From assembly GCA_905147135.1 (NCBI GenBank), contig LR990065.1:186001-250000 (forward strand): a DNA stretch of 64,000 nucleotides. The letters run 5' to 3'. This stretch comes from Blastobasis lacticolella (lineage: Eukaryota > Arthropoda > Insecta > Lepidoptera > Blastobasidae). This document shows positions 64-52,649 of this stretch, one piece after another. The translations under genes and the position numbers were made by a program. The notes under the pieces were generated by a model, which was not told the DNA's origin, did not search any database, and saw only the letters and a program-made list of their open reading frames with translations. Within the stretch, counting starts at the first letter, position 1, and each line of letters begins with the position of its first letter.

Positions 64-107
64 TCATCCCTCCTTAATTCTACAGTAGGTAAACTCTACG
101 CACTTAC
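64..107 (-). CDS. Candidate 3' exon of cassette 3 (GKCVEFTYCRIKEG, stop)
   Basis: Same exon type as at 1389-1432, with one residue change (T for I in the loop between the cysteines). The acceptor context CCTCCCACAAG and the TGA stop are intact. The 3' UTR and poly(A) signal lie outside the window. The same dual splice-site caveat applies. Confidence 0.4.
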
Positions 108-500: not shown

Positions 501-521
501 CAAAGGGATCAAAAAGTAAAC
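501..521 (-). CDS. Microexon C, 21 nt (GLLFDPF)
   Basis: A 21-nt exon between a TTTTTACAG acceptor and a GTAAGTC donor, phase 1-1, reading GLLFDPF. Its counterpart in copy 2, microexon F (23545-23565), reads DLSYDPY: five of 21 bases differ and every changed codon changes the amino acid, while about 100 nt of neighbouring intron differ by only a few bases. Confidence 0.6.
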
Positions 522-1208
522 CTGTAAAAAGGAAAAAATGTATAAGTGCCTCAGTTACCTATAGTGAGAAATAAGTCACAAGCTTGGGTAGACTATGCAA
601 GTATGCAGAGGTAAAAACTTAAGCACGGCAGGACCGTTTTAGGTATTAATTTGAAATGTATGTGCCTAGCGTTGGTAGGTAGGTAGATATAATAGTCGGA
701 CAAAACTGCCCTACCCCTTCCTTCCCCTACCCCTACTCAAAGGTCGTCCGCTGGAGAAGTAAGAGACTAGTTACAGTCTCGGGAGCCAATCAGCACCTCG
801 TGACGATATGATCATAGGCGTAGGCAGAGGGGTGGCCGGGTGGGCCGTGCCCACCCCAGAAAGGCCTGGTGCCCACCCAAGGATGTATGTACCGTATGTA
901 CATGTGTATATAAAAAACGTAATACAAACATAATTTAAATTAAATGCAACCTAAGAATCCTCAGGGGCCGGACCCCACCTGGAAAATAGCCCAAGATACG
1001 CTAATGGATATGATAGTATGAAGTTTGCCGAGGTTTATACAAAGTTTAGAGATATGACGACTAGTCAGCCCGAACAGCTGACTCATCGGTTATTCTCTTT
1101 ACCTATACTCATGGGTAAAATCAAATCAGTTTATTTCTTTGCAATCCTTTCGCTATCAGTAAACTATCTTTACAATTGTGTCAAGATATTTTGTCTGGAA
1201 ATTGCGAT

Positions 1209-1214
1209 TTTATT
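1209..1214 (-). terminator. Poly(A) signal of cassette 2
   Basis: AATAAA on the minus strand in the context GCAATAAAATCGC, about 180 nt past the stop codon of the 3' exon at 1389-1432. It is conserved at the same place behind the cassettes at 24364-24407 (near 24183) and 27310-27353 (near 25278, after a transposon insertion). Confidence 0.5.
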
Positions 1215-1388
1215 GCAATGCTTGTCAAATTCCATTTTAAAACAGGCAGCTGTAGGTACTCGATAGAAAACAGAATTTGTGCCGATTAAACTACCGCCTA
1301 ACCTTTGAAATGATGCCGATACTTTTTTGCTGCAGTTTTTGGTTTGGCTTTGAAGTACAGGTCGAAGCAAGAAGAAATGGGCTCCTTT

Positions 1389-1432
1389 TCATTCCTCCTT
1401 AATTCTACAGTAGATAAACTCTACGCACTTAC
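1389..1432 (-). CDS. Candidate 3' exon of cassette 2 (GKCVEFIYCRIKEE, stop)
   Basis: After a TCCTTCCACAAG acceptor in phase 1 the frame reads GKCVEFIYCRIKEE then TGA. Two cysteines five residues apart would allow a small disulfide loop. A poly(A) signal lies about 180 nt downstream (1209-1214). Caveat: the same junction CACAAG/GTAAGTGCG is also a perfect 5' splice site, so an alternative is an upstream exon that ends here. I prefer the 3'-exon reading because phase, stop codon and poly(A) signal agree and because no conserved acceptor is visible upstream for the alternative. Confidence 0.4.
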
Positions 1433-1831: not shown

Positions 1832-1849
1832 CATCCGTGTTTGGGATAC
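1832..1849 (-). CDS. Microexon B, 18 nt (GIPNTD)
   Basis: The 18-nt exon GTATCCCAAACACGGATG lies between a TTTTTACAG acceptor and a GTAAGTC donor. It is phase 1-1 and reads GIPNTD with the carried-over G. Its counterpart in copy 2 (24803-24820) differs at one base and reads GVPNTD. Downstream in the same cassette is the 3' exon at 1389-1432. Confidence 0.6.
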
Positions 1850-2650: not shown

Positions 2651-2694
2651 TCATCCCTCCTTAATTCTACAGTAGATAAACTATACGCACTTAC
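2651..2694 (-). pseudogene. Candidate 3' exon of cassette 1, with premature stop
   Basis: This is homologous to the 44-nt 3' exon of the other cassettes but the fifth codon is TAG where the others have GAG, so the tail would read GKCV and stop before the second cysteine. Its 3' region also lacks the AATAAA found in the sister units (a run of T stands there near 2411-2418) and carries a short inserted TAAATAAATAAA tail around 2455-2480. This cassette probably cannot make the two-cysteine tail. Confidence 0.5.
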
Positions 2695-3101: not shown

Positions 3102-3128
3102 CTTCGGTTGGGTTAGGTAAATCACCAC
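3102..3128 (-). CDS. Microexon A, 27 nt (GGDLPNPTE)
   Basis: This 27-nt exon lies between a GTTTAACAG acceptor and a GTAAGTC donor on the minus strand. With the G carried over from the previous exon it reads GGDLPNPTE and leaves in phase 1, so it can be included or skipped without changing frame. It occupies the position that in copy 2 holds microexon D (18 nt, GVFNKY). Flanking intron sequence is similar between the two copies but the exon is unrelated in sequence and length, which points to rapid exon turnover. Confidence 0.6.
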
Positions 3129-4027: not shown

Positions 4028-4061
4028 CTGATTGTGCTGAGGCCAAAGCACACAGCAGCAC
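4028..4061 (-). CDS. Secreted-peptide gene copy 1, exon 2 (signal peptide, second half)
   Basis: This 34-nt exon follows a strong acceptor (a run of T then CAG) and ends at a GTTAGT donor; copy 2 has the better GTAAGT. It encodes VLLCALASAQS plus one base, so it exits in phase 1. Both the reading frame and the hydrophobicity run across the junction with exon 1, which would be unlikely by chance and is seen in both copies. All six downstream microexons enter and leave in phase 1, matching this exit. The next sequence downstream in copy 1 is interrupted by a non-LTR fragment (3305-3868) before the first microexon. Confidence 0.7.
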
Positions 4062-4819: not shown

Positions 4820-4849
4820 CACAAAGAAGAACGCCAGGTAGAACTTCAT
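4820..4849 (-). CDS. Secreted-peptide gene copy 1, exon 1 (signal peptide, first half)
   Basis: The exon encodes MKFYLAFFFV, a basic N-terminus followed by a hydrophobic run, the start of a signal peptide. It ends in phase 0 at a GTGAGTG donor. Spliced to exon 2 at 4028-4061 it continues as VLLCALASAQS, giving a textbook 21-residue signal peptide with a probable cleavage after ASA or AQS. The intron of about 760 nt contains an antisense SINE. The same exon, with a stronger GTAAGTG donor, is at 31883-31912. The start is fixed by the TATA box upstream and the lack of any earlier in-frame ATG in the short 5' UTR. I do not recognise the peptide family; a short immune-type or neuropeptide-like secreted peptide fits by size only. 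Confidence 0.7.
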
Positions 4850-17886: not shown

Positions 17887-19341
17887 TTACTGCTCAAAGA
17901 ATACGCTACTTAGCAATTGCCGCGCTGCGTGAACGCTCGTATTAAAAACATCAAGATCAACGCCCGATTCCAACAATGAAATACAACTCCTGGTCGCCCG
18001 AATAAGATACGAATTCTGTCTGTAATTAGTAGAGGCTTGGGGATACATAAATGGTACCTTGTGACGACCACCATGACCTCTAGGTACCCGAAACTGCAAT
18101 TTACTGAGTAATTTGGGACAGTCTACCGAACTAGAAGCTATTTTAAAAATGTAAGTTACATCTGCAATATTGCGTCGAAGAGACAATGGCATTAAATGGA
18201 ATTTTTTACATAAATCTAAATACAGCTCAGACTTATAATAAATTTTAAGTCTATAGCACAGGTACTTCATAAACCTAATCTGAACACGTTCAAGTCTTGT
18301 TTTGTAAACGTCATAGATGGGATTCCATATTTGAGAAGCGTACTCTAAGGTACTTCTTACATATGCGCAATATAAGACTTTGAAAGTCTTTGCGTTTTTG
18401 AAGTCCTTGGTTACACGCATGAGAAAACCCAATGACTTCGATGCCTTGGCAACAATGCTCTCAATGTGGTAATTATAGACCAATTTATGGTCTAGTACAA
18501 CACCCAAGTCTCTAATTGAAGTATCCCTAGTAAGTGACTGGTTTCCGAGGAGATAATTATATATAACAGGTATAGGTTTACGAGTAAAGGAAACTACACT
18601 ACATTTTGAAGGATTCAGATCAAGATTATTATCAGAACAATACTCGACAAGTCTAGTAAGGTCTTCCTGCAGTGCATTGGCATCATTAACGGTAGCTACA
18701 CTTGAGAAAACCTTCATATCATCTGCGAAGCAGAGAAGATGTGAATTGTGAAGGCAGCTAATAATGTCGTTAATGTAAATAGTAAACAACATAGGCCCGA
18801 GTAATGAGCCCTGGGGAACACCACTAGGAATTCCTACCCAACTCGACATGTAATTATTTACTACAACCGCCTGTGACCTATTCTCAATGTAAGACGCAAA
18901 CCATCTAAGCAAGTCCCCACATATTCCCACACTTTTCAACTTTGTGAGAAGACGCCTGTGATTTATCCAGTCAAATGCTTTGGAATAGTCCGTATTTATA
19001 ACGTCCACTTGCATGCCAGCATCTAAAGTTTCAGTTAGAAAGTCGTTGAAAAGAGCAAGATTGCTGACAGTGGATCTGCCGGGTATGAACCCATGTTGGA
19101 AATCACGAAGAGATTGCTTAATGGCCGCATATACCTGCCTGTGAACCACTTTTTCAAACACCTTTGACACTATACATAATTTTGATATGGGCCTGTAATT
19201 GGTCACTTCCGTTCTTGAACCTTTTTTATAAATGGGGGTGATAAAAGCAGTTTTCCATAATGTTGGTACTGTACACTCCTTCAAGGACCTTTGGAACAGC
19301 AGACAAATAGGAACTGAGATGGTATCAGCACATTTTATCAA
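17887..19341 (-). pseudogene. Element C reverse transcriptase domain (484 codons)
   Basis: Copies element RNA into DNA at the nicked target. Motifs in order: TNYRPISKLCIVSKVFEK (about residue 47), FIPGRSTVSNL, NTDYSKAFDWINH, SGVPQGSLLGPMLF and LLCFADDMKVF with the catalytic FADD at about residue 229, then DLGVVLDHKL and the C-terminal RTRLERVQ/KYLCYR domain, ending SSVFFEQ. The catalytic core is intact. The upstream linker is out of frame by one base near 19360 (the residues GPDQLPAIF, usual here, are read in another frame), so the original ORF2 is disrupted. Confidence 0.85.
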
Positions 19342-19658
19342 GAATATTGCTGGGAGTTGGTCGGGGCCAGCTGATCTAACTTAGACAACAAAATTGCGAC
19401 AGATTCGACATTCAACAAGATTTTTGAAATGACAGACGTAGGCAAATCATGGGCGGCGCTAGCTAGTGTCAACCACCGGTTGCTGTTTACTTGAGTCGAG
19501 AAAATTGGATAGAAAATAGTCTGAGAAGACATTGCAAATATCAGTACCTGTACTGAATGTTACATTGCCATATGTAAGGTTACTCGGCATTACATTACTT
19601 TTTGTTTTAGTGTTGTAATAGCTCCAAAAATGCTTGGGATTATCTGTAATTGCTTCTT
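19342..19658 (-). pseudogene. Element C ORF2 linker, frameshifted
   Basis: Minus-strand frames read AITDNPKHFWSYYNTKT, then FSTGTDICNVFSDYF, then VESVAILLSKLDQ, the usual linker between endonuclease and RT. They are spread over different frames, showing at least two indels. Confidence 0.7.
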
Positions 19659-20738
19659 CTATAGAACGTACCTATCATAACAGCTGCTTTCAAGTGCTTG
19701 GGCTCTAGCTCGCAATAATTTCATCTCCAGCTTATCTGCCAAATTTCCATATTTTATAAATTTACGATAACACTTGTATTGTTCCTTAATAACCTTCTGA
19801 AGCGACTTAGAATACCAAATAGGGTACTTACAGCCAGAACACGATATGCGAGGTATATGTTTATCTCTGATTAAATAATAAATTGAATAGAAGTAACTAA
19901 CACATTCCTCCAATGACCTGTGCTCAAACTCACTTTCCCAGTTTACTTTTTCCACCTCTTCGTTGATGATGTTGTAATCACCTTTATTGAAGTAATATTT
20001 TATTCGCGGCGCAGCAATCAAATGTTTATAATTAGCAGGGTAGTATTTTAACAATAACGCTCCATGATAAGCATCAATAGGTACCAATGGGCTATCGCAA
20101 CTAGATACAAAAACGTCATCGTGATTTGACAGAACTAAATTAAATTGCTTTAGCCCGTGTAGGTATAACTCATCCACTAAACAGCACTCATCGTTTGTGA
20201 TGTTACCCGACGGTACAAGAAAGTTACCCTGCGATGTCCAAATAATATTACTTAAATTAAAGTCGCCCACGATAAAGAATTTATCGTTGGGGTTAGAAAC
20301 AACGACGTCGCTTAGTTTATTTAAGAAATTCGATAATTGTGTGGAAAAACTATTACCTAGATTTTGACGACACAGGTATATACCGCATATGTGTATGTTA
20401 CTAATTTTCCGCGTAGTTGAATCTTGTATGGAGATAGTAACCCACAAGTCCTCGGCTGTCGAGTAGAAGGTAGGCTGCGCCGAGGCACACACACTTCCCA
20501 TGATTGCAATCAAAACACCACCACCTCGAGTCTGTTTTGTAGAACCGTAATCACGATCGCGCCTCCAAACGACATACCTATCGTCGAATAGTTCCGTGTC
20601 CCTAACACCATCGTTCAACCATGTTTCCGTGAGGATTATAACATCGTAATTATTCAGTCTCACGTTACGATAGAAGTCCGTTGTCTTTGTTCGTAATCCC
20701 CGTGTATTTTGATAGTAAATACTTAAATAATTAGCCAT
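19659..20738 (-). CDS. Element C endonuclease domain (359 codons)
   Basis: APE-type endonuclease that nicks the target to prime reverse transcription. It starts MANYLSIYYQNTRGLRTKTT with the N-box, followed by ILTETWLNDGV (catalytic E), GGGVLIAI, CGIYLCRQ, FFIVGDFNLSN (catalytic D) and a DSP-type end. The start codon overlaps the stop of a 139-codon upstream frame (ATGGCTAA). The domain looks intact to residue 350, where the frame is lost. Length is normal for the domain. Confidence 0.8.
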   Translation of the reverse strand: MANYLSIYYQNTRGLRTKTTDFYRNVRLNNYDVIILTETWLNDGVRDTELFDDRYVVWRRDRDYGSTKQTRGGGVLIAIMGSVCASAQPTFYSTAEDLWVTISIQDSTTRKISNIHICGIYLCRQNLGNSFSTQLSNFLNKLSDVVVSNPNDKFFIVGDFNLSNIIWTSQGNFLVPSGNITNDECCLVDELYLHGLKQFNLVLSNHDDVFVSSCDSPLVPIDAYHGALLLKYYPANYKHLIAAPRIKYYFNKGDYNIINEEVEKVNWESEFEHRSLEECVSYFYSIYYLIRDKHIPRISCSGCKYPIWYSKSLQKVIKEQYKCYRKFIKYGNLADKLEMKLLRARAQALESSCYDRYVL

Positions 20739-21150
20739 TTATAAGCATGAAAATAAAAACATAATTAGCAATCAACACAATAACAGGCAGAATTCGATAA
20801 CATCTATACAATAAACGGCAACTGGAGAGTAATTCGCGTAGGTAACATTGAAATTTTAATGGACTCAAGTAAATCGCAGCGCAAACGCAAGCAGGTAAGA
20901 AAACGGTGCAGTATGATAGACAATTGCATAAGTGTGAGCGGGTTAGTAATAGAAACACGAGCGTCCGCCGCGCATTGTTTACCTCGATATGACTCGAAGA
21001 AAGGTAATGCGTGAAGTCAGGGGCGCGCAACCTTTTTGATAAGTTCATAAAAATCTTTAAGCAGCGTATTATGGGGTTTACTAAATTTAATGAAAAAGCT
21101 GTTGATAATAATGAAATTTGGCAGTAGCAATAGTAACCAAGCCTGGGCAA
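20731..21150 (-). other. 139-codon frame between ORF1 and ORF2 of element C
   Basis: Open frame rich in Leu, Cys and Tyr that ends within the ATGGCTAA overlap with the ORF2 start. It matches nothing I know. It may be only the inter-ORF spacer, but the stop-start overlap would suit termination-reinitiation. Confidence 0.2.
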
Positions 21151-21158
21151 AAAATGGA

Positions 21159-22082
21159 CTAAGTAAACTTGTTTAAATCGTCCTCCTTAGACACGATAAA
21201 CACACCACTTGAATCATTTTTCCGGACGTGGATTTTCCCATATCTCACCCAGACATATTTATAGTCTTTGTCCTTCGCGCACTTCTTAGTGTCGTTGAGC
21301 AGTCTCTTTAATCTTGGCGTTAGATGGTCATTTATATAGATTCGACGTTTGTCGTCGGCGAATCCTATATCTTCTGCGGTTGTAGTTTTCTTCTCTCGGG
21401 CTGCGGCTATAAAATCCTCCTTGAGGTAGCGATTTATAAATCGGACTATTATAATCTTTTCCTTGTCATTAAAAGTAGGCACTCTAGAAATATAGTCGAT
21501 TTGCGTCCTCGGGATACTGCAATCTATCGTTTTGGATATGTTTTCGAAAATATGAAACAAATTTTCTTTGGATTTGAAGGGGTCCCCTCTAATTTCGAGA
21601 TTGTTCATTCTTGACCATTGCTCCTTATCCAATATGTCGGCGCGAAGCCGGTCAACGCTCTGTTGGGTTGAAGTCATTTTGACGTCTACGTTGATAACTT
21701 TGGATATTTCGTCCTCAACGTCCTCCAGACGCTTGCCGAACTCGGATAAACTTGTGCTGTTCGCTGTGCACGCTGTCTTTAGATCCTCCAATTCATTTTT
21801 TATGGCCTTTACATCATCCACCAATTCAGGGACGCGGTCAACGTGTTTCTTGACTTCCCTGATCTCCTTCAGGATGATTTCCAGCAAGGGTAAGTCCTGT
21901 TTTGCTTTAACACAATTTGGGCACCTGAATGCAGCTCTCTTCTGAGATCTAAAGGTACGATAGACCACTTCCTCCACTTCAGCACAGGCAAAACAAAGGT
22001 TCTTATAGCAGCCAGCACACAACACCAGATCGTTAGAGGATGCACTACAGGATCCGCACGCGGACGACATTGTAAATAACAA
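21159..22082 (-). CDS. Element C ORF1: PHD-like zinc finger, coiled coil, RRM-like (307 aa)
   Basis: Predicted RNA-binding chaperone of the retrotransposon particle. Cysteine pairs at residues 9-61 (CGSCSAS, LCAGCYKNLCFACAE, FRCPNC) form a PHD/RING-like finger. Residues about 70-150 are coiled coil (EIILKEIREVKKHVDRVP). QWSRMNNLEIRG begins the RRM-like domain and NDHLTPRLKRLLND the C-terminal domain. The frame is uninterrupted. Confidence 0.75.
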   Translation of the reverse strand: MLFTMSSACGSCSASSNDLVLCAGCYKNLCFACAEVEEVVYRTFRSQKRAAFRCPNCVKAKQDLPLLEIILKEIREVKKHVDRVPELVDDVKAIKNELEDLKTACTANSTSLSEFGKRLEDVEDEISKVINVDVKMTSTQQSVDRLRADILDKEQWSRMNNLEIRGDPFKSKENLFHIFENISKTIDCSIPRTQIDYISRVPTFNDKEKIIIVRFINRYLKEDFIAAAREKKTTTAEDIGFADDKRRIYINDHLTPRLKRLLNDTKKCAKDKDYKYVWVRYGKIHVRKNDSSGVFIVSKEDDLNKFT

Positions 22083-22275
22083 TTAAGGTTACTATTATTT
22101 TATTCTTAAAAAGAGCAAAAAAGGTTGATCAGCACTGAATGTTATCGGTCGGTGTCAATGATAGTTACTACGAGTCCCACGTGTTACCTCTGCGACCGAA
22201 CGACGCGAACTATAATAATATAATAATTTCACTAATAGATAATATGATAATTTCAAAACTAAATTCTAACACTTT

Positions 22276-22935
22276 TCACTTAATCTCTGTGATACCTAAT
22301 GTCGTTTCGGCGGCACCGGAAATTCTGGGTCGCCCACGGAATCGCCGGTACACCACACCCTTCGGCCAATAATCTTCCCTCATGAAGAAATCCAAATCTG
22401 CGGTGGGAACCAACACCACGAACGAGTTGAACGTACGTTCATGGCTTGATTCCAAGAGCCGGACTCTCACGAGGTACTTTTTGGTTAAGCGGATATGCTC
22501 TTTCACGTCCTTTGCCGTCACTGTGTAATGAAGGCGGGACAGGTAAAGCGCCGTCGTCGGTGTCGCAGGGCGCAGTAGAAAGTTGGGACCGGTTACTGCA
22601 GTGCCGCGAAAATTCTGAGCAGCACGACGTCTACTCTTCTTCTGGACCGTGATAAATCCTTCCTCATCACAGTCCACGTCGGGGGCACATGGGGGCTTTA
22701 ATACCCCCGTTTCTTGTGGAGCTGAAGCAACCACGCGACGAGGTTGGCGCGATGCCGGTGCGCTGACGGGAGCCGCGGGCGCGGCGGGCGCTGGCGGGTG
22801 GGCAGCGGGTACGGGCCGGCGAGCGGCGGGTGCGGGCGGGCGCGGCGCGGGCGCAGGGCCTCGCGGTGACGCACCCGCAACGTGTACGCCGATGCGAGCC
22901 GCGTACGTATTGAGTTCCAGCGTGGACGGCGGCAC
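22276..22935 (-). CDS. Element C upstream ORF: Pro/Ala-rich, RRM-like C-terminus (219 aa)
   Basis: Residues 20-85 are a GC-rich proline/alanine/arginine tract. Residues 93-107 (DEEGFITVQKKSRRR) and 130-200 (LYLSRLHYTVTAKDVKEHIR, later FVVLVPTADLDFF and WPKGVVYRRFRGRPR) form the RRM-like domain often seen at the C-terminus of CR1-type ORF1 proteins. It lies only about 190 nt upstream of a second ORF1-type frame. Either the element has two ORF1-class proteins, or two elements are fused here. Confidence 0.7.
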   Translation of the reverse strand: MPPSTLELNTYAARIGVHVAGASPRGPAPAPRPPAPAARRPVPAAHPPAPAAPAAPVSAPASRQPRRVVASAPQETGVLKPPCAPDVDCDEEGFITVQKKSRRRAAQNFRGTAVTGPNFLLRPATPTTALYLSRLHYTVTAKDVKEHIRLTKKYLVRVRLLESSHERTFNSFVVLVPTADLDFFMREDYWPKGVVYRRFRGRPRISGAAETTLGITEIK

Positions 22936-22969
22936 CTCCGTGAAGTTGGCCCCCCAAAGTAATTATTTT

Positions 22970-23544: not shown

Positions 23545-23565
23545 CATAGGGATCATAAGATAAAT
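23545..23565 (-). CDS. Microexon F, 21 nt (DLSYDPY)
   Basis: Acceptor TTTTTACAG, donor GTAAGTC, phase 1-1. Counterpart of microexon C in copy 1. Five bases differ between the two and all changed codons are amino-acid changes (G/D, L/S, F/Y, F/Y). Its 3' exon is missing because element C occupies the next position. Confidence 0.6.
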
Positions 23566-24363
23566 CTGTAAAAATGAATAAATGCATAAGTGCCTAAGTT
23601 ACCTATAGTGAGAAACAAGTCACAAGCTTGGGTAGACTATGCAAGTATCCAGAGGTAAAAACTTAAGCACGGCAGGACCGTTTTAGGTATTAATTTGAAA
23701 TGTATGTGCCTAGCGTTGGTAGGTAGGTAGATATAATAGTCTGAAAAAACTGCCCTACCCCTTCCTTCCCCTACCCCTACTCGAAGGTCGTCCGCTTGAG
23801 AAGTAAGAGACTAGTTACAGTCTCATGAGCCAATTAGCACCTCGTGACGATCCTCCTCCTCGTGAAATCCCGGTTTTGAAAAGATATACCGGTATTGCCA
23901 CCCCTACATGCGAGGTTCACCTAGGTCGTCCGCAGGGGAAGTTACAGTCTCGGGAGCCAATTAGCACCTCGTGACAATATAAATATGATAGTATGAAGTT
24001 TGCCGAGGTTTATACTAATTATGAGCGATATGACGACTAGTCGGCCCAAACAGCCGATTCATCGGTTATTCTCTTTACCTATCTCATGGGTAAAATCAAA
24101 TCAGTTTATTTCCTTGCAATCCTTTCGCTATCAGTAAACTATCTTTACGATTGTGTCAAGAGATTGTGTCTGGAAATTGCGATTTTATTGCAATGAATGT
24201 CGAATTCCATTTTAAAACAGGCAGCTGTAGGTACTCGATAGAAAACAGAACTTGTGCCGATTAAGCTACCGCCTAACCTTTGAAATGACGCCGATTCTTT
24301 TTTGCTGTTGTTTTTGGTTTGGCTTTGAAGTACAGGTCGAAGCAAGAAGAAATGGGCTCCTTT

Positions 24364-24407
24364 TCATCCCTCCTTAATTCTACAGTAGATAAACTCTACG
24401 CACTTAC
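24364..24407 (-). CDS. Candidate 3' exon of copy 2, second cassette (GKCVEFIYCRIKEG, stop)
   Basis: Intact version of the two-cysteine 3' exon, entered in phase 1 after CCTCCCACAAG. AATAAA follows near 24183, about 180 nt past the stop. Same dual splice-site caveat as at 1389-1432. Confidence 0.42.
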
Positions 24408-24802
24408 CTTGTGGGAGGAATGATGTAAGCAAATAGAAGACTATGCAAGTCTCGGGCCCTAATAAAATTACACTTAAGGTACTAAGTCCTACGTGTGTGC
24501 GTTTAAAAGTTTTGTTCGGAGCATCGTGATAGTGACGCTCAAAACTCACGCTCATGCTCGTGCGTGTCATCTCGCGATTGTGTCTCCGGCATTGACTTTC
24601 TCTCACTATTGAATTTGGAATTCTAGAAATACACTTGTGCGAGTTATTACAAAGGTTGTGAAGGATAGGTAAGTAGGTATCTACCTTAATTTAAGCGGCG
24701 AATTTCAAAGGAAAAAATAATGTCGTCGATAAAATTAAGTACGTAGGTACTTAACTACCATTATTTTATAAAATGTAGGAACTGTAATCTTTTTAGACTT
24801 AC

Positions 24803-24820
24803 CATCCGTGTTTGGGACAC
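24803..24820 (-). CDS. Microexon E, 18 nt (GVPNTD)
   Basis: GTGTCCCAAACACGGATG between TTTTTACAG and GTAAGTC, phase 1-1. Differs from microexon B of copy 1 by one base (I to V). Confidence 0.6.
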
Positions 24821-25351
24821 CTGTAAAAATGAAATAATGTATAAGTGCCTAAGTTACCTATAGTGAGAAATAAGTCACAAGCTTGGGTAGACTATGCAAG
24901 TATGCAGAGGTAAAAACTTGAGCACGGCAGGACTGTTTTTGGTATTAATTTGAAATGTATGTGCCTAGCCTTGGTAGGTAGGTAGATATTATAGTTTGAA
25001 TAAACCTGGCCTATTTCTGCCCCTGCCCTATCCTTTCCTTCCCCTACCCCTACTCAAAGGTCGTCCGCTGGAGAAGTCAGAGACTAGTTACAGTCTCGGG
25101 AGCCAATTATTTTCTTTACCTATATTCGTGAAGGGGTAAAATGAAATCAATTCATTTCATTGCAATCCTTTCGCTAACAGTTAGCTATCTTAACTATTTC
25201 ACTTGCTTTTGATTTATTGAGGTGCCTTGAGGCTGTTAATAGAGGACTGCGCAAGAGATTGCGTCTCTAAATTGCGATTTTATTGCAATATATGTCGAAT
25301 TTCATTTTAAAACAAGCAGCTGTAGGTACTCGATAGAAAACAGAACTTGTA

Positions 25352-27212
25352 TAATAATAATAATAATAATAATAAAAATATTTATTTCTCCACAATAATC
25401 TTATAATATTAGGATACAATAATTCGAACATGAATTTTGTTATTGTGGGAGACTGGAGCTTACGGTAGGTCAAGCCTGTGTTGTAAGTCTCCAGAAATCC
25501 CTGTATGATTAAATTGAAGTATAATTATTGAGAGAGAGATAGAAACAGAGAAAATTTTAATTAAATTTACTTACATACTACATTTTTAAAGTAAAGAAAA
25601 TAAATGAAAAGGTGTGTAGTGCGTTTGTATGTGTGTAAGTGTGTGTGTTTGTGTGTGTCCATCAGCCAACAACTTGCATAATAGCCTCTGTTACGTCGTA
25701 GTTAACATTTTGTAAAAGTGAAGTTATTTTGTGTTATGCTTCGAATTTAGCTAAAGTGTAGATTTGTGTCTGTCTATTGATTCTATTGTAAAGAAATGGA
25801 CCAAGGAATAGAAAAAATTTTTGAGCAAAGCTGGTTGACACTTGCCTTGGACAGAAAACTATGGGGCGTCTGGAATTGAATGTGTTATGAAGTAGGTGCA
25901 TATGAGTGTTGTTTCAGAATTATATTCAATATAAACAGTTGTCGGACAGTCAATACTTTATAATTTTGATATAGTTCAAAAGTAGGAAATCTGTAAGGGC
26001 GGAAGGTACTAACTTTAATAATTATTTGTTGAGCTCTTTCTAATCTAATTAAATTTGTCTTGGATGTACCTCCCTAAACAGTGATACAGTAAATAATAAG
26101 TGGTTGGCATAATAAGTAGTAAATGGATTTCAATAATTTGTCATCAGCCACATGACGTAGCGTTTTAAAGATATAAATTAACTTTCTCATTCTGTTTGTA
26201 AGTAGGTTGACATGTGGTTGAAAAGTGAGCTTATGGTCAATAAGTATACCTAAGTATTTGTAACAATCAGTTCATTCTATTTTTGGACAATTACATGTAG
26301 TGGTAGAAAGGGAACAAGAGTGAGCGACTAGATCTAAAGGAAGCACAGGCAAGCGTTGATGATCCGTCATGGTAAAAGTTATATAATTCGACTTTTGAGT
26401 GTTAAGAGTCAACTTATTCTGAACCAACCAACTTGTGACAACGTTGAGTCCTGATTGGGCACAATTGAATACTTCTTCCCAAGATTTGTCATTAAAGAGG
26501 ATGGCAGTGTCGTCCGCAAAGATCAGGATTTTAACATTTACGAGAGGAAGGTTACACAGTATATTAATAAAAATAAGAAATAGGGTAGGGCCTAGTATGC
26601 TACCCTGTGGCACTCCGTGCGTAATTGGAAGATCGGTACTGATGTGATGGTCTATTTTAACGCACTGGGTACGATTGGAAAGGTAACTCTCAAATAATTG
26701 CAATTGTACACCTCTAACGCCAAAACGTTCCATTTTCAATAGTAGTAAAGGTAAAGAGACGGTGTCAAACGCCTTAGTTAAATCTAAAAATATGGCCAAA
26801 GTTTTTATCTTATAGTCTAGGTTTTCAACCACATAATTGGTGAGCTCATGAACAGCATCCGCAGTTGACTTACCATTTCGGAACCCATATTGAGCTGATG
26901 ATATCAAGTTATTGCTTTCTAGATATGTAACAAGTCGTTTGTTAATTGATCTTTCAAGAATTTTAGACAAAGCTGTCAATACTGAAATGGGTCTATAGTT
27001 ATTAATTACACTCTTATATCCATTATTAAATATATGATGAATTAGGGACTTTTTGAATGCTGTGGGGAAGATGCCATTACTGAGAGAAAGATTACAAATA
27101 TGAGTTATAGGGGTAGTCAATATATCCTTGTGTTGAATAATAAGATTACTAGAGATGTCATCCCATCCTACCGCACAGTCACGTTTCAAATTAGAAATTA
27201 TTTCATAAAGTT
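25352..27212 (-). pseudogene. 5'-truncated non-LTR element 'D' in the 3' UTR of the first cassette
   Basis: The 305-codon frame 26272-27189 holds the RT core: NNYRPISVLTALSKILER, QYGFRNGKSTADAV, FLDLTKAFDTVSLP, HGVPQGSILGPTLF and KILIFADDTAILF. Degraded thumb and C-terminal sequence continues to about 25700. The 3' end is a TTA-repeat tail (ATAATAATA on the plus strand at 25352-25373). It splits the cassette tail between CAGAACTTGT and TACCGCC, leaving the 3' exon at 27310 about 2 kb from its poly(A) signal. Confidence 0.85.
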
Positions 27213-27309
27213 ACCGCCTAACCTTTGAAATGACGCCGATTTTTTTTGTGCTGCAGTTTTTGGTTTGGCTTTGAAGTACAGGTCGAAGCAAGAAGAAATG
27301 GGCTCCTTT

Positions 27310-27353
27310 TCATCCCTCCTTAATTCTACAGTAGATAAACTCTACGCACTTAC
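27310..27353 (-). CDS. Candidate 3' exon of copy 2, first cassette (GKCVEFIYCRIKEG, stop)
   Basis: Intact two-cysteine 3' exon. With exon 1, exon 2 and microexon D it would give a prepeptide of 41 residues: signal peptide, GVFNKY, then GKCVEFIYCRIKEG. This is the shortest complete exon chain in the window. Element D interrupts the 3' UTR just past it. Confidence 0.45.
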
Positions 27354-27748
27354 CTTGTGGGAGGAATTATGTAAGCAAATAGAAGATTATGCAAGTCTCG
27401 GGCCCTAATAAAATTACACTTAAGGTACTAAGTCCTACGTGTGTGCGTTTAAAAGTTCTGTTCGGAGCATCGCGATAGTGACGCTCAAAACTCACGCTCA
27501 TGCTCGTGCGTGTCAACTCGCGATTGTGTCTCCGGCATTGGCTTTCTCTCACTATTAAATTTGGAATTCTAGAAACACACTTGTGCGAGTTATTACAAAG
27601 GATAGGTAAGTAGGCATATACCTTAATTTAAACGGTGAATTTCAAATTCAAAAATAATGTTGTCGCTAAAATTAAGTACGTAGGTACTTAACTACCATTA
27701 TTTTATAAAATGTAGGAACTGTAATATTTGTAATATTTTTAGACTTAC

Positions 27749-27766
27749 CATACTTGTTGAAGACAC
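27749..27766 (-). CDS. Microexon D, 18 nt (GVFNKY)
   Basis: GTGTCTTCAACAAGTATG between TTTTTACAG and GTAAGTC, phase 1-1. It is the first microexon downstream of exon 2 in copy 2, about 200 nt away, so exon 2 to D to the 3' exon needs no long introns. Confidence 0.62.
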
Positions 27767-27968
27767 CTGTAAAAATGAAATAATGTATAAGTGCCTAAGT
27801 TACCTATAGTGAGAAATTATTTTGTATTGTATATACGTAGCGTTGGTAGGTAGGTAGGTGTAAAAGTCTGAATAAACCTGGCCTACTTCTGCCTTAACTT
27901 TGCCGTACCTCTTCCTTCCTTACCTCTACTCAAGCCTACCCCACCACTACTCTTTTATCGTTACTTAC

Positions 27969-28002
27969 CTGATTGTGCTGAGGCCAAAGCACACAGCAGC
28001 AC
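27969..28002 (-). CDS. Secreted-peptide gene copy 2, exon 2 (signal peptide, second half)
   Basis: Identical in coding sequence to exon 2 of copy 1 (VLLCALASAQS plus one base) with the consensus donor CAG/GTAAGT and a T-rich acceptor ending CAG. Exact conservation of this exon contrasts with the variable microexons next to it. Confidence 0.72.
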
Positions 28003-28439
28003 CTGAAAAAAATTTGCTTTATTTAAAAGAAATAAAATAAAGAAGCAACATCGCCATAGCAAGTAACCTATACTTAGATTTTATTATGCTACGCAGTGAC
28101 AAACGAGCAATCAGCCCACCTGATGGTAAGTGGTAGATAACTGTACCTATCGATACATGCATTTAGTCACTGAGGACTAAAATGAAATGCCTCATGCCTG
28201 TAATTGCGTCGGCCACCTTATCTTTCAAACCGGAACACAACAATTCAAGCATTGGTACATGACGGCAGAAATAGATAAGGCGGTGGTACTCAGCCAGGCG
28301 GGCTCCTCAGGTTTGACAGAGTCCTACCACCTGACATGACAATTCATCGCCAACCACACACATCACATCTGCTTAGTCCTTACAGTTCACTGATGGATAT
28401 AGCCTCCTCCACGTTAGTGAACGGTAATGCGGTAAGTAT

Positions 28440-28790
28440 AGTAGGAAAAAGCGTCGCTGGTCTAGTGGTTAACGTCCGTCTCGTTAACGAGAGGTACCGA
28501 GTTTGAATCCCAGTGCAGCCACATTTCACACGAGAACATTTAATAGTAGTCTACTCAACCCCTGTCCTAATTTGAACACCCACTGCTCTGACACCCAACT
28601 GACTGCCGCCATATAGCCATAGCTCTTTTCTGAGTTATGTACCTATAATAAGTATTTGAACATTCATTGACACTCCAACCCAACTCAACCTTACAAGCGC
28701 AGGCTGAAAGTGTAACCATGATCAAATCTAGTTACTGGCAAACCCTGGATCATATACTAGGCGGACCTCGGCCCCACCTTAAATTAAATG
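28440..28790 (+). mobile_element. tRNA-derived SINE
   Basis: Head with A box TGGTCTAGTGGTTAACG and B box GAGTTTGAATCCC (28456-28512). The body ends in the CCTGGATCAT ... AGGCGGACC phrase shared with the SINE at 59340-59640. Confidence 0.7.
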
Positions 28791-30275
28791 TCAATGATAG
28801 AATTTAATCTCTATATTTAATCATGTCCATCAATTATTATTATATTTACTGTCAATGAAATTTTCAAGTATTCGTTTACCGAATAAAATGGCTTATCCAA
28901 CAAGAAGTCATTAAGCAGATTTGCAAAATGTGTATAGCTACTAGCGTTTCTAATTTCAGCTGGCGGAAGCTCATAATACACTGGCCTTATAACGCGAGAA
29001 TTTTTGGTTGCTTGTGTGATATTGCGTTTTCCAGATTAAAACTAACTATTTTGCTGAGATCAGCTCAAATCAAAGCGTGCAAATGAATCAACTGTTCGAC
29101 TTGTACATAGAACAATCTCATATATATTGCTAAACTTGGCTCACAATTTTATTTTCGATGAAATGTTTTTTGCGAAACTGCCTGCGTTATGCGCCTACCA
29201 ATGTTCTGAGTGCCCGTTTTTTTGTGCAATCAAAAAACGGTGTGATTCTGATGCGTTTCCCCATAGAATCATTCCATTAGACATAACAGAGTGTTTGGCG
29301 GAGAATATTTCAGAGATGCGATAGGTTTCTATTTACCTATAGCATATGTTGCATTAGACAATTTTGCACAGACATTATCAATGTGTATTGCCTACTTCAA
29401 CGTGGCTAGCATATTGAAATTTAGTCGTCGTGCATAATTGAATCGGGTTTTGCATCTCCCTCAAATCAGGTGGCAATCTCTCCAAAAATATAATTATTTT
29501 GGATTTAGTGCTATTTAGTATCAGTCCATTACACATTGGCGAACTCCAAGCCCCCACATGTTGCGCGGAAGCATTATCGGGATTTGACGCCAAGAGTTTC
29601 AGTCCACTACTCTGCAACCACTAATTAAGCCGCGAATATGCAGCTCGGGTATTACTCTCTACATTTTTTTGCGTTGGTGCCCGTACTACTACCGTGGCAT
29701 CATCCGCAAACAGCACATTATGATAATTTTTCATAAATTTGGTTAAACGTTGGAATACCGTGAATAGTGTGTTTCTTAGAGAGGATCCCTGTGGAACACC
29801 TATCGTTATGCTGACTTCATCTGACCTATGACACCATCTATTCGAACTTCAACAGTATGTGTGTACTTTATTTCTTAATAAATACAGGAGTTCAAAAAAT
29901 AATTTTACAAAGCAAAGGGTTATCCCAACCGTCTGTTTTCTATTATGTATGAAATTTTGAATTGAAGCTTTTAGGCGTTACCTAATTTGCTGTATCGTGA
30001 CAGCTTTTAGATGAGAAGCTCATGGTTAACAACATTAAAAGTAGAGATGAAACGGATAGTTGTTTGGCCAGATACCGGATACCGGATATCCGGCCAGCCT
30101 CCTAGCCGGATAGCCGGATATCCGGCGGCCGGATATTCGGCAGGACATAGTCTCTGAACAAGTTTGTGCAAGTTGTGATCGCGGCGTGGGACTTTATTCG
30201 ACTTTAACACACACTATTTAACACTTAAATGTGTTTATGTAATTTCAAGTCTTTGTTTATGGGAATAAAAAAACC

Positions 30276-30506
30276 GTGGACAAATTCACAAAGCGCCATC
30301 TAGCCCCAAAGTAAGCAAAGCTTGTGTTATGGGTGCTAGATAACTAATTAACTACTTATATACTTTTAAATACATACTTAAAACACCCAGACCCGTAACA
30401 GAAATTAAAATTTATCTTTCAATTTCTGCCCGGCCAGGAATCGAACCCGGGACCTCTTGCGTGCCAAACCGGCATGTTGACCACTGAACCAGTCAGGTCG
30501 TCAATA
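30276..30506 (-). mobile_element. tRNA-derived SINE inside the hAT MITE
   Basis: Minus-strand head GACCTGACTGGTTCAGTGG with B box GGGTTCGATTCC (30440-30455), then the ATTTCTGTTACGGGTCTGGG segment and the GGGGCTAGATGGCG tail. A tail-only copy in opposite orientation lies at 30735-30795. Confidence 0.7.
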
Positions 30507-30654
30507 ATTTGAACGTTGAACTGAACAATTCCGCCCTTCCCCACATTAGCCTACAGCATCGTAGAGGATAAACGATATCATATACTACCTCTAAATATAA
30601 AGAAATTCATATTTTTATTCCAGGATAATATTTTTTTAATATCTTTATTATCAA

Positions 30655-30906
30655 CATATAAGGTATTACATAATATATGTATGAAGCCGTGAACTAGATG
30701 GAGTGCTAAACGTATTAAAACTATAGGTACAATTATAACACATGCTTTGCTTACTTTGGGGCTAGATGGCGCTGTGTGAATTTGTCCACGATTATTTATT
30801 ATTATTATTTCTGTCGTGCGTGAAATAGTTGTATCTATCGTTGTAATACGATTAGCAATCCATCCAGTTCACGGCTTCATACATAATTATGTAACAGCCT
30901 GTATAT
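30655..30906. mobile_element. Small inverted-repeat element inside the hAT MITE
   Basis: Arms of about 75 bp: TATGAAGCCGTGAACTAGAT (30680) and its near-complement ending near 30906. Related to the inverted repeats at 58632-58666 and 63903-63977. Its middle holds a SINE tail. Confidence 0.55.
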
Positions 30907-31882
30907 CTTAATTGACTTTGAAAAAATATTACACTAAATACATTATTATACTAAACAGCATTTGTCAAAAGTACACATGACAAAAATGCCGGCCGGATAT
31001 TATCGCATTATCCGGTATCCGGCCGGATAGTAAATTATGGCCGGATAGGCCGGATACCGGATAGTGGCCGGATATCTGTTTCATCTCTAATTAAAAGCCT
31101 TTGATATGTCACAGAAGATTCCAGCGGTTTTGATCTTACTGTCTATATCGGTAATAATATACTACTATGTTTTGACTTGTTAGACTATTATGTTTACGAT
31201 ATGCTAATGTTTTTGCCGTAATTAGCTTGTTTTTTTTAAATATGTCAATATAGTCTATACTTTCTATTCGATAAAATAAAAAATACGGTTATTGGGCATT
31301 AGTTATAGATACTTGTTCTTTTGCTATTATTTTTTAATATGTGACGTAAACCTTTGCTTTTTGGTACTAATATCTAAATATAAGTAATAAAAGATACTTT
31401 CAAAAATTTGATCTGACCAAATTGGATCTTGGTTACACGTTCAGATCGCCTTTAAGTGCAGGTTTTCTCAAGATGTTTTCCTTACCGTAAGAGCATCGGT
31501 TAGTTGTCATCTGATCAACTAATGTACATAACTCGGAATAACCCAACTGACAAAAAACCGAATAACTCCCGACCAAGTTTACATATACTTAAATATTTTC
31601 TAAACTACTTAACTAATTTTAATAATATGAAGCTAATAATCATCTCGATTAAACTATCGGTCTATCTGTTCGTGTGCTACGATGCCACCTACAGACATAC
31701 ATATACACACGTGAAACTTGTAACACCCCCCTTTTTTATGACGGAGTTAAAAATATTGATACATTGCACTGATGATTGAACTCGGTACCTCTCGCTCACG
31801 AGTCGGACCCGGCAGCCAATAGACCTCCGATATTCTTGTTATCCATTGCAAATTAATGATATGTAATTAATAAAACACTTAC

Positions 31883-31912
31883 CACAAAGAAGAACGCCAG
31901 GTAGAACTTCAT
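31883..31912 (-). CDS. Secreted-peptide gene copy 2, exon 1 (signal peptide, first half)
   Basis: Encodes MKFYLAFFFV with a GTAAGTG donor. The intron to exon 2 has grown to about 3.9 kb by insertion of an RT pseudogene, SINEs and a hAT MITE. Splicing across it is still plausible because both sites are intact. Confidence 0.7.
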
Positions 31913-36090: not shown

Positions 36091-37007
36091 TCTATACCAA
36101 TATCATAAAGAGAGGTTTGATGGTCTGTTTGTATTGATAAGCTCAAAAACTACTACTTACTACGATTTAAAATTCTTTTACCCATAGAAAGCTTCATTAT
36201 CAGCGGGTTACATAGGCTATAGTTCTCCCCGAGATTCAATGTGGTTGCCACGGGAACGGATCCGGAACGCAGTGTTGGGCATGAACAATTGATATTTTAA
36301 TCATCATATTAATTGATTGAAAAATTAATTGCAATTAATTTAATCACAATTGATTTAATTGCAATTAATCTGTTATTTGCGTATTGCAATTAATTTATTT
36401 AAATAAACTCACGTTAATTGCAAGAGACAATTAAAATAATATTTTTAATTGTTACAAGAGACAATTAAAACTAACAATTAACAATCACAGATTTATATTG
36501 TTATGCGGCCCGATCGGGCCGCTCGAGGGCTGAGAGGTAAGAGTAGGACGCGAGAGAGACAAAATAATATGTAAACGCATTATTATGTTGAAAGCTATTT
36601 GCGGAAAGAATTTTCTATTCTTAAGTACTAGTATATATATTCTGTGTGGCTATCATGAAGAACGATTTAGCATGGCCATTAAGGTCAAGCTTGTGAAAGC
36701 CCTACCCTGTGCCACTCCTTAATCTTATAATATTACTATTTACATTATTTAAATTTAATTAAAGTTTAATTACAAGAACAGTTAACAATTGATTAATTGT
36801 TAATTGCAACGTCACAATTAACAATTAATCAATTGTTAATTGCAACGTCACAGTTAACAATTAATCAATTGTTAATTGATATTTCACAATTAACAATTAA
36901 TCAATTGTTATTTTTAATTGTAACTTGCAATTAAATTTTGCCCAACACTGCCGGAACGTAATACGTTCCTAATTTTACGCAGATAAAGACGCGGGCAAAA
37001 AAGCTAG
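36091..37007 (+). mobile_element. Non-autonomous Helitron (plus), interrupted by a hAT MITE
   Basis: Begins TCTATACCAATATCATAAAG after A and ends GACGCGGGCAAAAAAGCTAG before T. The hAT MITE at 36270-36950 interrupts it after GGATCCGGAACG. Confidence 0.7.
36270..36950. mobile_element. hAT-type MITE (681 bp), 8-bp target duplication
   Basis: TIR CAGTGTTGGGCA at both ends and a perfect 8-bp duplication CCGGAACG at 36262-36269 and 36951-36958. The interior is almost wholly AATTAATTG-type words, including a 35-bp tandem repeat at 36780-36905 (TTGTTAATTGCAACGTCAC). Confidence 0.9.
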
Positions 37008-38622: not shown

Positions 38623-39302
38623 GGTGCGTACGAATTAGAGGCAGCCTCAGGTTAAGGCACGCACGGGTCGCCCATTTGCTCAAATTCGTATGTGGCTCAC
38701 GCGCAGTGCGCCGCGAGCCGCCGACTGTCGGTTTTCTGTCCATGCTCAAAGGTGCCTCGGCGTGCGTGCTTCGCGAGTTTGGACGTGACGTGACGAATGC
38801 GCGCGTATTGTTTATTGACACTTGACAACTTTAATATTTTCATGTCAATTAAACTGTTGGTCTTCCTAATAAATAAATAAAATAAATAAAATAAATAAAA
38901 TAAATAAAATAAATAAAATAAATAAAATAAATAAAATAAATAAAATAAATAAAATAAATAAAATAAATAAAATAAATAAAATAAATAAAATAAATAAAAT
39001 AAATAAAATAAATAAAACAAAGAAAATAAATAAACAAATTATTTGGAAAACTTATATACTAAACAACATGGTGAGAAGAAAAAAGCGTTATGGGATCGAA
39101 AAAACTAAAATTATTTTAACAATCCCATCAATTATGATAAAAGCAGCATCAGCATTTTATTTGTGCGGCGCATTTATGGCTCGCCGCGAGCACGTTGCCT
39201 CAACGAATAAACAAATGCGCAGCTGAGCAGCCTGCGCGGTGAGCATCTCGCCGCGCACGGCTAGCATGCCTCGGGCTGACCCGCTCTAATTCGTACGCAT
39301 CT
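38623..39302. mobile_element. MITE, piggyBac-like flanks, containing a minisatellite
   Basis: TIR GGTGCGTACGAATTAGAG at 38623 and its near-complement CTCTAATTCGTACGCATCT at 39284-39302. Left flank is TTAA (38619-38622), right flank TTAG (39303-39306), consistent with a TTAA duplication with one later mutation. The GC-rich arms hold a 9-bp minisatellite between them. Confidence 0.6.
38867..39037. repeat. 9-bp minisatellite (AAATAAATA)n, about 17 copies
   Basis: Near-perfect 9-bp period. The open frames over it on the minus strand (Phe-Tyr-Leu repeats) are a by-product of the period being a multiple of three. Confidence 0.9.
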
Positions 39303-39673
39303 TTAGATTGTAAAGTAACGACCATTCGGAGACATATCCGAGACGTCAGTGAGACGTCATTGGAGCTCTATTGCAGTTTTAGCACCAATGAAGTGGTCTC
39401 ATTGCCTTTGTACAATGAACCGGTCCATATATAGAAGCCTTGCTGGCAGCACTACATTACTTTAAAACTCAAATTTAATATTCCTATCTGTAAACAAACT
39501 GATACTTCAGCTGTCACATCGACCAGACATTGTTTTTTTTTTATGTTTAAGTTTTCATGTGATATCACAGTGATATTTCCAGCATTTTACTGTGTGGGAC
39601 GTTTATTTTCGAAATAAGTACAAAACATAAAAGCGGCACGAAAACAATAATATTTTGAGATTATCAAGCATGT

Positions 39674-39736
39674 ATGGCCGAGTTTAGAGCAGATAAGTTG
39701 CTGTTTGATTTGGAAGATGAACAGCAAAGATTGTAA
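39674..39736 (+). other. 20-codon frame, exon-like (also at 43116-43178)
   Basis: Reads MAEFRADKLLFDLEDEQQRL and stops, then ACGGTACGT, a donor-like site two bases past the stop. The composition looks like real protein, unlike its surroundings. Could be a first exon with an acquired stop, a uORF or chance. Confidence 0.2.
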
Positions 39737-40720
39737 CGGTACGTAACATGTATTCAGATAGATTTTGAAAATATTGTAAGAAATGTGATCTTTTGGAAAT
39801 CATTTGAATTTAAGTGGAATTATTTATTTATTTAAAACTTCATTGCACAATAATACAATTGGCGGACTTAAAGCCATTAAGGCTTTATCTTCCAGTCAAC
39901 CAGTAGACAATGCAGAAAGTGAGTAAGTAGGTGCTTTATAAAGCGTGATGATAGATTGTAACTTACCTAAATACAATACTAACTACATCAAGATAGAATA
40001 AACATATATTATATTATAATAAATACTATACATACATACATATATTAATGTATTTTGTAGTACTTATTGTTTACATTTATTTAAGGTTACAAAATTAACC
40101 GACAAAGTATTATGGTAGCTTTGATCGTTTTGTATTTTTGATATTTGTTGTTTGACAGTATCTAGATCTATATCCAGGCACAGTGCAATGTACCTAAGGC
40201 TATTCGGTGCTGGTGAAATGAAACCCTGCTGACCCTCGGTCAGAGAAACTTGAGAAATCTATTTTTAATTTCGGAAATCGTAGTAAATCATTATCACTGG
40301 CTGGTTAAACAGTGACACAGAGAGACAGAACATTGCTAAGAGATTGACATTACAACGTTAACAGTGTTACGGTTAATAAATTAATAAGGATATATACAAG
40401 AATATTATTTCTATATCCAACACTTCCCTTAAACTTATTATTCCAGCAATTTATCTATATTGTGACAGTTGAAGTAGGTACTCAGTTTGACATTAGGATT
40501 GTTTAGACATTGATTAAAACAGTCATGTATCTAATAAAACACCCATTTGTTCCATTTGCTTCGAGTTGACATTATGCCAATTTTGCTTTCCCTATATGTA
40601 ACCTATCTATGGTCAATAATTATTTTCTATTACGTAGTGGGTTTATTAAAAAAAATGAATTATGTTTTTATTTGATACTTTTAGATTACAATATATAAAT
40701 TTCTAAAATGATCATTTCAA
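39737..40720. other. No gene seen (repeated at 43179-44162)
   Basis: AT-rich sequence with short microsatellite-like stretches (TACATACATACATA at 40029-40042). Nothing further supported. Confidence 0.45.
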
Positions 40721-41262
40721 TGTGCACTAAATTACACTGTCTTTAAGGTGGTTTGATTTAAATTATATTAGGAAATTATAAAATTATACACCGATGTTTC
40801 AAAAGAAACATCAGGTCTTCAGGAGCTCCAGTAACATGTGGAGCGTTCAAAACATTGCGCGCGTTATTTTCTGACAGCTTATTTCAATAGACGAAAAAAC
40901 AGGATAGCAAGATTCATAACAATTGTAGAGTGAGCAAACAGGGAATATTTGCAAATACAAGCAAAGCAAAAAAACTGGTCTGCACGGGGCCCCATGCGGA
41001 CCAGTTTTTTTGCTTTGCGCTTTCACTTAAATGTGCACTAAATTACACCGTCTATAAATGGTTTGATTTAAATTATATTAGGAAATTATAAAATTATACA
41101 CCGATGTTTCAAAAGAAACGTCAGGTCTTCAGGAGCTTCAGCAACATGTGGAGCGTTCAAAACATTGCGCGCGTTATTTTTTGACAGCTTATTTCAATAG
41201 ACGAAAAAACGGGATAGCGAGGTTCATAATAATTGTAGAGTGAGCGAAAAGGGAATATTTTT
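40721..41262. repeat. 311-bp internal tandem repeat around a hairpin (also 44163-44704)
   Basis: TGTGCACTAAATTACACYGT recurs at 40721 and 41032, followed by the same sequence with scattered changes. Both halves carry the small hairpin GATGTTTC-AAAA-GAAACATC or a variant. The perfect hairpin at 40961-41018 lies at the end of the first half. Confidence 0.8.
40961..41018. repeat. 23-bp stem hairpin (also 44403-44460)
   Basis: GCAAAGCAAAAAAACTGGTC followed by TGC pairs with GCGGACCAGTTTTTTTGCTT followed by TGC, with one T-G wobble. The 12-nt loop holds the palindrome GGGGCCCC. Could be a fold-back repeat or a small hairpin RNA precursor. Confidence 0.6.
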
Positions 41263-42257: not shown

Positions 42258-42605
42258 ACTGGCCCAAGTACAGATCCTTGCGTTACGGCTTTTATGTCAT
42301 ATACCTAATTGAAATTTTCCGTTCTCCAAATTTGACCTGGAACTTTCTGTCTAGAATGTAGGACTTCAGCACCATATAGTAAGAGTGATTTACGTTTCAA
42401 CTTATATAAAAGGCCTTTATGTCACCTTATCAAAAACTCTTGCTGTAGGTACGTCAAGTAACACAGCAGCACAGTATTCTTTTGCATCAAGGATCACCTT
42501 ATCTTGTTTACCACCCAGTGCTCCTGCTAAGCTGTGGAGGATTTCATGGAAACCAAACTGATGATTGGGTATATACATTTGCTTCTTTAGGTACTGGTTT
42601 TAATC
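42258..42605 (-). pseudogene. RT fragment 'H', truncated by the tandem duplication
   Basis: Degraded Jockey-type RT: IPNHQFGFHEILHSL, KEYCAAVLLDVPTARVFDKV, then AVTQGSVLGPVLY. It stops at the unit border. Confidence 0.65.
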
Positions 42606-52565: not shown

Positions 52566-52649
52566 TTTGATGTTCTATTTTTAGCTTGTTAAACCTCGAA
52601 AAACAGATAAGTACTATAAAATTTTACTAATTCTGGTCAGTGTGTTAAT

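Follow-up and report, generated by a model that had tools for sequence, protein, structure and literature searches.

The minus strand of a 64,000-nucleotide (nt) stretch of the Blastobasis lacticolella (Lepidoptera) genome (contig LR990065.1, positions 186,001 to 250,000; the whole stretch is referred to below as the window, and positions are counted from its first letter) contains two related loci, each with a single exon 1 and a single exon 2 followed by tandem cassettes (1A, 1B and 1C in copy 1; 2a, 2b and 2c in copy 2) that carry one microexon apiece. The anatomy is real, and to judge from the DNA it is probably that of a functional, unusually compact exon-array peptide gene. More specifically, the array is on balance likely to belong to a gene whose product is a secreted peptide of very small size, with one start, alternative 3' modules and one variable peptide per transcript. 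A sequence-only reading of the window had drawn attention to these loci; the pattern of divergence among the cassettes, which escaped that reading, is the stronger evidence and exceeds what is expected by chance.

Divergence of the microexons

The six cassettes were aligned, and alignment windows were restricted to columns 316-910, the homologous part. Mean pairwise difference is 0.467 in the 21 microexon columns versus 0.082 in the rest of these columns; the highest other alignment window reaches 0.206, and none of 505 equals the microexon. When cassette 1A is left out, the corresponding values are 0.444 for the microexon, 0.075 for the rest and 0.222 for the highest other window (0 of 511). 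Pair by pair, the microexon is unmatched by any other window in 11 of 15 comparisons, and a Fisher test against nearby intron gives values below 0.01 in 12 of the 15 pairs, which are not independent of one another. The contrast is clearest in recently split pairs: 1C and 2c differ at 5 of 21 microexon positions versus 2.9% outside the microexon, 2a and 2b at 5 of 18 versus 3.7%, and 1B and 2a at 6 of 18 versus 3.5%. The variable block begins with the first base past the acceptor AG and extends up to GGTAAGTCTAA, 11 columns that are invariant in all six cassettes, and its edges coincide with the splice sites. Differences in length between microexons are 3, 6 or 9 nt, whereas of the 8 distinct indels found in columns 387-910 four have lengths not divisible by three (4, 8, 1 and 1 nt; one of 1 nt at column 908 is counted as a fifth).

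Because this divergence is about six times that of the surroundings, is cut off at the splice sites, and falls in intervals that are in frame and stop-free in all six cassettes, the best explanation appears to be that selection favours change in a translated microexon or resists homogenisation there. Relaxed constraint reaches the neutral rate at most, and the excess would not easily arise by neutral drift of non-coding DNA.

The exon that follows the microexon in five of the six cassettes, here called the tail, differs in the opposite direction, with 12 pairwise differences in 440 (2.7%), compared with 9.6% in the near part of intron 2, 6.7% in its far part and 5.9% in the 60 nt past the stop codon. 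On its own, the conservation of the tail is suggestive.

The borders of the microexons carry less weight. Both strands of the window were scanned for an acceptor and GTAAGT with 9-45 nt between them, and 22 such intervals were found, the six microexons among them, versus 6.3 +/- 2.2 in sequences generated by a first-order Markov model. Four of the 16 remaining intervals likewise have lengths divisible by three. As copies of one ancestor, the six microexons are homologous and do not represent six independent events. Since the scan finds other intervals of this kind and the microexons share their ancestry, borders that resemble splice sites, and lengths in multiples of three, are weak evidence when taken alone.

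Anatomy of the two loci

Copy 2 extends from 31912 to ~23310 and copy 1 from 4849 to the window edge, and their best-matching blocks are ~95-97% identical. As the sequence-only reading had it, exons 1 and 2 together read as a split signal peptide (MKFYLAFFFV / VLLCALASAQS), and this holds in both copies: exon 1 lies at 31883..31912 in copy 2 (donor GTAAGTG) and at 4820..4849 in copy 1 (donor GTGAGTG), and exon 2 at 27969..28002 in copy 2 (donor GTAAGTAAC) and at 4028..4061 in copy 1 (donor GTTAGTAAC). Both exons of copy 2 are identical to their copy 1 counterparts, and a blastn-short search over the window gave full-length matches at these two known places only. Exon 2 ends in phase 1, with the first base of a Gly/Asp codon after VLLCALASAQS in copy 2.

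Downstream of exon 2, copy 2 contains microexons 2a (27749..27766, 18 nt, (G)VFNKY(G)), 2b (24803..24820, 18 nt, (G)VPNTD(G)) and 2c (23545..23565, 21 nt, (D)LSYDPY(G)), and copy 1 contains microexons 1A (3102..3128, 27 nt, (G)GDLPNPTE(G)), 1B (1832..1849, 18 nt, (G)IPNTD(G)) and 1C (501..521, 21 nt, (G)LLFDPF(G)). The sizes reported earlier (18, 21 or 27 nt) are borne out, as are divisibility by three, phase 1 at both ends and freedom from stop codons, in six cases of six; the junctions named for copy 2 (31883/28002, 27969/27766 and 27749/27353) are correct as sequence positions. Of the uniform borders claimed for the microexons, the donor GTAAGTCTA is present in all six, but the acceptor TTTTTACAG in five only, that of 1A being GTTTAACAG. 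Similarly, a cassette length of ~1.26 kb fits three of the four steps from microexon to microexon (1255, 1279 and 1328 nt), but not the fourth, which measures 2946 nt and contains a piece of a long interspersed nuclear element (LINE) with an RVT_1 open reading frame (ORF; 26272-27210).

The two-cysteine tail had been taken to be common to all microexons. It is not one shared exon: five of the six cassettes carry their own copy, a 44-nt terminal exon that is located ~390-430 nt beyond the microexon and reads GKCVEFIYCRIKEG-stop. It has this form in 2a (27310..27353, acceptor CCTCCCACAAG) and 2b (24364..24407) and is altered in the other three, 1A (2651..2694) having an in-frame stop after GKCV, 1B (1389..1432, GKCVEFIYCRIKEE-stop) ending in EE, and 1C (64..107, GKCVEFTYCRIKEG-stop) having I changed to T. 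Microexon 2c has no tail exon downstream because the copy-2 array breaks off between microexon and tail (~23310); the copy-1 array may continue past the start of the window. In cassettes 2b and 1B the tail is followed by a poly(A)-signal block (24174..24193, TTGCAATAAAATCGCAATTT, and 1199..1218, respectively), in which AATAAA starts 175 nt past the tail. Cassette 1A has only a different AATAAA, 298 nt past the tail; in 2a the LINE piece parts the tail from its signals, the first AATAAA being at 1924 nt, and 1C runs to the window end. The repeated tail favours alternative terminal modules over a shared 3' exon, so that of the diversification scheme put forward in the sequence-only reading, the variable microexon is supported, indirectly, by the divergence pattern, and the common tail is replaced.

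Several insertions and reading frames were noted in and beside copy 2. Cassette 2b alone lacks a stop between an acceptor-like sequence upstream of its tail and the tail itself, giving a 108-codon frame across intron and tail (24364-24690, minus strand). Intron 1 of copy 2 contains an insertion (30040-31090, minus strand) that resembles a small DNA transposon, inverted TATCCGGCC/GGATA motifs being repeated at either end; within it, near 30420-30500, is a tRNA-like stretch with the look of a short interspersed nuclear element, in which ARAGORN calls no tRNA gene. Next to the copy-2 array, where it breaks off, is a retroelement without long terminal repeats (a non-LTR element; 17887-22962, minus strand) encoding reverse transcriptase and endonuclease, with an upstream ORF that matches the Pfam domain Baculo_FP_2nd.

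Proposed gene model and product

From the anatomy, the exon phases and the divergence contrast, we infer that the array is spliced and translated and that selection has caused its divergence. Exons 1 and 2 would encode the signal peptide only, with cleavage at ASA/QS, a site that fits the usual -3/-1 rule. Each module would begin with a hypervariable microexon in phase 1; a second intron would follow, then the conserved two-cysteine terminal exon with its stop codon and, where undisturbed, a poly(A) signal. Most likely, exon 2 is joined to a single microexon, which in turn is joined to the terminal exon next after it; since each module has its own tail and, where intact, its own poly(A) signal, use as alternative 3' modules is the simplest. 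The mature product would be pQS-(6-9 variable residues)-GKCVEFIYCRIKEG, ~22-25 residues in length, and predicted variants include QSGVFNKYGKCVEFIYCRIKE(G) and peptides that start with QSGVPNTDGK and QSGLLFDPFGK. Its cysteines would form a C-x5-C loop, its N-terminal Gln could be converted to pyroglutamate, and its C-terminal Gly could permit amidation.

New modules may have arisen by unequal crossing-over, with their microexons then altered rapidly under diversifying selection; the locus would then act as a repertoire of short peptide heads that can be expanded, all sharing one signal peptide and one scaffold. We suggest, tentatively, that this is a splice-selected insect repertoire of short peptides that vary for recognition, with diversifying selection limited to the microexon of 6-9 residues, on a fixed C-x5-C scaffold; the locus would be, in miniature, an exon array of the serpin-1 or receptor type. 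If transcribed, the microexons would rank with the smallest variable modules known from any animal exon array. Annotation pipelines are likely to overlook such a gene, with its exons of 18-27 nt and its peptide of ~22 residues; the combination of a fast microexon, a slow intron and a slower tail in recent duplicates would offer a direct, low-cost signature for finding loci of this type in the genome of any insect. The target of such peptides would be a testable question, with host-parasite, sexual and microbial conflict in Lepidoptera as candidate settings.

Several observations weigh against this gene model. An earlier sliding-window run took in the full alignment, whose ends are ragged and not homologous, and the microexon did not stand out in it; the restriction to columns 316-910 was chosen after that run. 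Some pairs of cassettes have other windows as divergent as the microexon (1A/1B, 9 of 515; 1A/2b, 2 of 511; 2a/2b, 1 of 502), and in 1B/2b the microexon has no excess at all (1 difference in 18 positions; 256 of 511 windows as high). Scorable codon changes mostly change the amino acid, in agreement with selection (nonsynonymous/synonymous counts of 4.2/0.8, 5.2/0.8, 5/0 and 1/0 in the four alignable pairs), but the sites are few, and the synonymous ones too few for a firm ratio of nonsynonymous to synonymous rates (dN/dS). Other stretches are as conserved as the tail (18 of 392 windows of that length), and one of the tail's 3 changes is a stop. Only four of the six cassettes are complete, the tail of 1A being stopped (GKCV-stop) and that of 2c lost, and three 5' splice donors are not alike in copies 1 and 2. 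Docking and selector RNA pairing, which is known in some exon arrays, was not established as an explanation of module choice: one of the six pairings beats all 200 mononucleotide shuffles and the other five do not (shuffles at or below the observed pairing energy: 1A, 127; 1B, 40; 1C, 62; 2b, 0; 2c, 16; 2a, 45).

Alternative explanations

The stopped tail of 1A, the missing tail of 2c and the retroelements inserted within the array are what would be expected of a decaying or non-coding array, in which the microexon interval is a hot spot of mutation or gene conversion and the splice sites are chance remnants. Such decay is nevertheless unlikely, since lost constraint gives the intron rate at most and the microexon is about six times as divergent as its surroundings are on average, in a block that stops exactly at the splice sites and stays open and in frame in every cassette. 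Another possibility, that the microexons are included serially (exon 2 - m1 - m2 - m3 - last tail) to give longer peptides in the manner of the micro-exon genes of schistosomes, agrees with phase 1 on both sides of every microexon, by which any series remains in frame, and would give a use to 2c, which has no tail and is otherwise useless in copy 2. It leaves unneeded, however, the near-identical tail with its stop in five cassettes and the poly(A) signal at 175 nt in 1B and 2b, and is quite improbable. Use of an upstream acceptor for the terminal exon, TTTTATTAG/GGCCC, which would make the tail GPETCIVFYLLT-stop and relegate GKCVEFIYCRIKEG to the 3' untranslated region or a retained variant, must be counted very unlikely. 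A good acceptor-like sequence is present there in four of five cassettes, and an in-frame stop follows after 12 residues in four of five, the frame of 2b running on into GKCVEFIYCRIKEG; but the acceptor is lost in 1C, and its 38-nt stretch has diverged at the intron rate (34 of 380, 8.9%), versus the lower rate of the GKCVEF exon (12 of 440).

A further proposal concerns ancestry only and is compatible with the splicing of alternative 3' modules: the peptide might be what is left of a Kunitz/BPTI protease-inhibitor domain that has lost both flanks and kept its central hairpin (C-x-EFIY-GG-C-R). A literature text search with pieces of the peptide led only to the spider Kunitz inhibitor AvKTI (...CVEFIYGGCRG...), which shares with the tail CVEFIY and, across a two-residue gap, CR, so that the tail resembles the AvKTI hairpin minus two glycines. 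With a small Kunitz hidden Markov model, seven query peptides reach 6.0-12.2 bits, and of 20000 shuffles only 3 score as high for 2c, 8 for 2a and 14 for the tail, counts that overstate the likeness because the family was picked after the text match. Against Kunitz descent, which is accordingly doubtful, the model E-value is ~1, PF00014 was not found in Pfam at E up to 10, the peptide has two cysteines and not six, and a PDB sequence search gave no match; in tblastn of AvKTI against the window the tails appear at E 1.3 or worse, after an unrelated match at 0.25.

Comparison with known systems

In insect gustatory-receptor loci, many alternative 5' modules at one locus are joined to shared 3' exons; the arrangement here is the reverse. 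The closest mechanism is that of serpin-1, in which constant 5' exons are likewise followed by tandem alternative exons toward the 3' end and the insect product is secreted (PMC5691223). Manduca sexta serpin-1 has 14 mutually exclusive copies of exon 9, encoding the reactive-centre loop, Bombyx has 4, and a Pteromalus orthologue is described as well (PMC5691223). As in arrays of the serpin-1 type, tandem homologous phase-1 exons (six, in two copies) lie downstream of constant exons in B. lacticolella. Serpin-1, however, is large and its alternative exons are of full size (PMC5691223), whereas here an exon of 18-27 nt, with a terminal exon in each module, would give a peptide of ~22 residues, and there is no sequence relation between serpin-1 and this locus.

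Schistosome micro-exon genes are similar in having a signal peptide, very short in-frame exons, long introns and variation in splicing, but they carry 10-20 different short exons in series (PMC10526429), whereas copies of one microexon-plus-tail module are found here. A gene of that type was rejected because the DNA reads as one microexon per module, in homologous modules each with its own tail. Aphid bicycle genes resemble the locus as insect genes for secreted products, with numerous tiny internal exons that share a single phase, rapid evolution and cysteines; they differ in joining ~17 exons in series into one protein with CYC motifs (PMC9168663), in place of alternative modules with a C-x5-C tail. 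That family has spread by whole-gene duplication, with 476 genes in one aphid (PMC9168663). Membership was rejected here also, CYC being absent from the conceptual peptides and each module having one microexon. In the snake-venom process named ASSET, short segments are swapped for unrelated sequence with introns remaining similar and cysteines kept, but within ordinary exons of separate paralogues (PMC2711939), and not, as here, as whole microexons in the array of one gene. In the venom of an insect, the lacewing, alternative splicing has been reported to diversify secreted peptides (PMC12758981). A literature search, mostly without subscription papers, found no described family that joins a microexon and its own repeated terminal exon to a single signal-peptide start.

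Pfam returned three weak families for five conceptual peptides, over the signal peptide; none of the three is serpin, so that serpin membership was rejected, and the Bomanin/DIM immune peptides were rejected since PF08194 reaches at best 15.1 bits against a cut-off of 20.8, over signal-peptide residues. NCBIfam gave nothing for two conceptual peptides. A protein search with one conceptual precursor yielded no candidate, a result of little weight because the same database gave only 4 proteins for the spider Kunitz inhibitor. DNA patterns from the locus had 0 matches in viral_contigs and 0 in genome_contigs, collections of viruses and prokaryotes in which a match is not expected.

Other features of the window

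Rfam gave 0 matches and ARAGORN 0 tRNA genes. There are 74 retroelement matches, of which 2 are named from Phthorimaea operculella (48% and 38% identical), a moth; these relatives are consistent with an insect origin of the sequence. A second non-LTR element (49676-52574, minus strand) has an ORF with endonuclease and the beginning of reverse transcriptase; the N-terminus of the ORF before it resembles a PHD finger but scores below the Pfam cut-off. At 39164-44702, a segment of ~3.4 kb is present twice in tandem with an offset of 3442, as the result of a recent duplication or an assembly artefact; reference blocks of 300 nt and 202 nt are 100% identical between the two, and a 310-nt internal repeat is identical at 95%. 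Shorter tandem repeats consist of a 9-bp AAATAAATA unit in 18 copies with 97% matches (38871-39034) and a 36-bp unit in 3.7 copies (36778-36910), which is rich in AATTAA/TTAATT palindromes.

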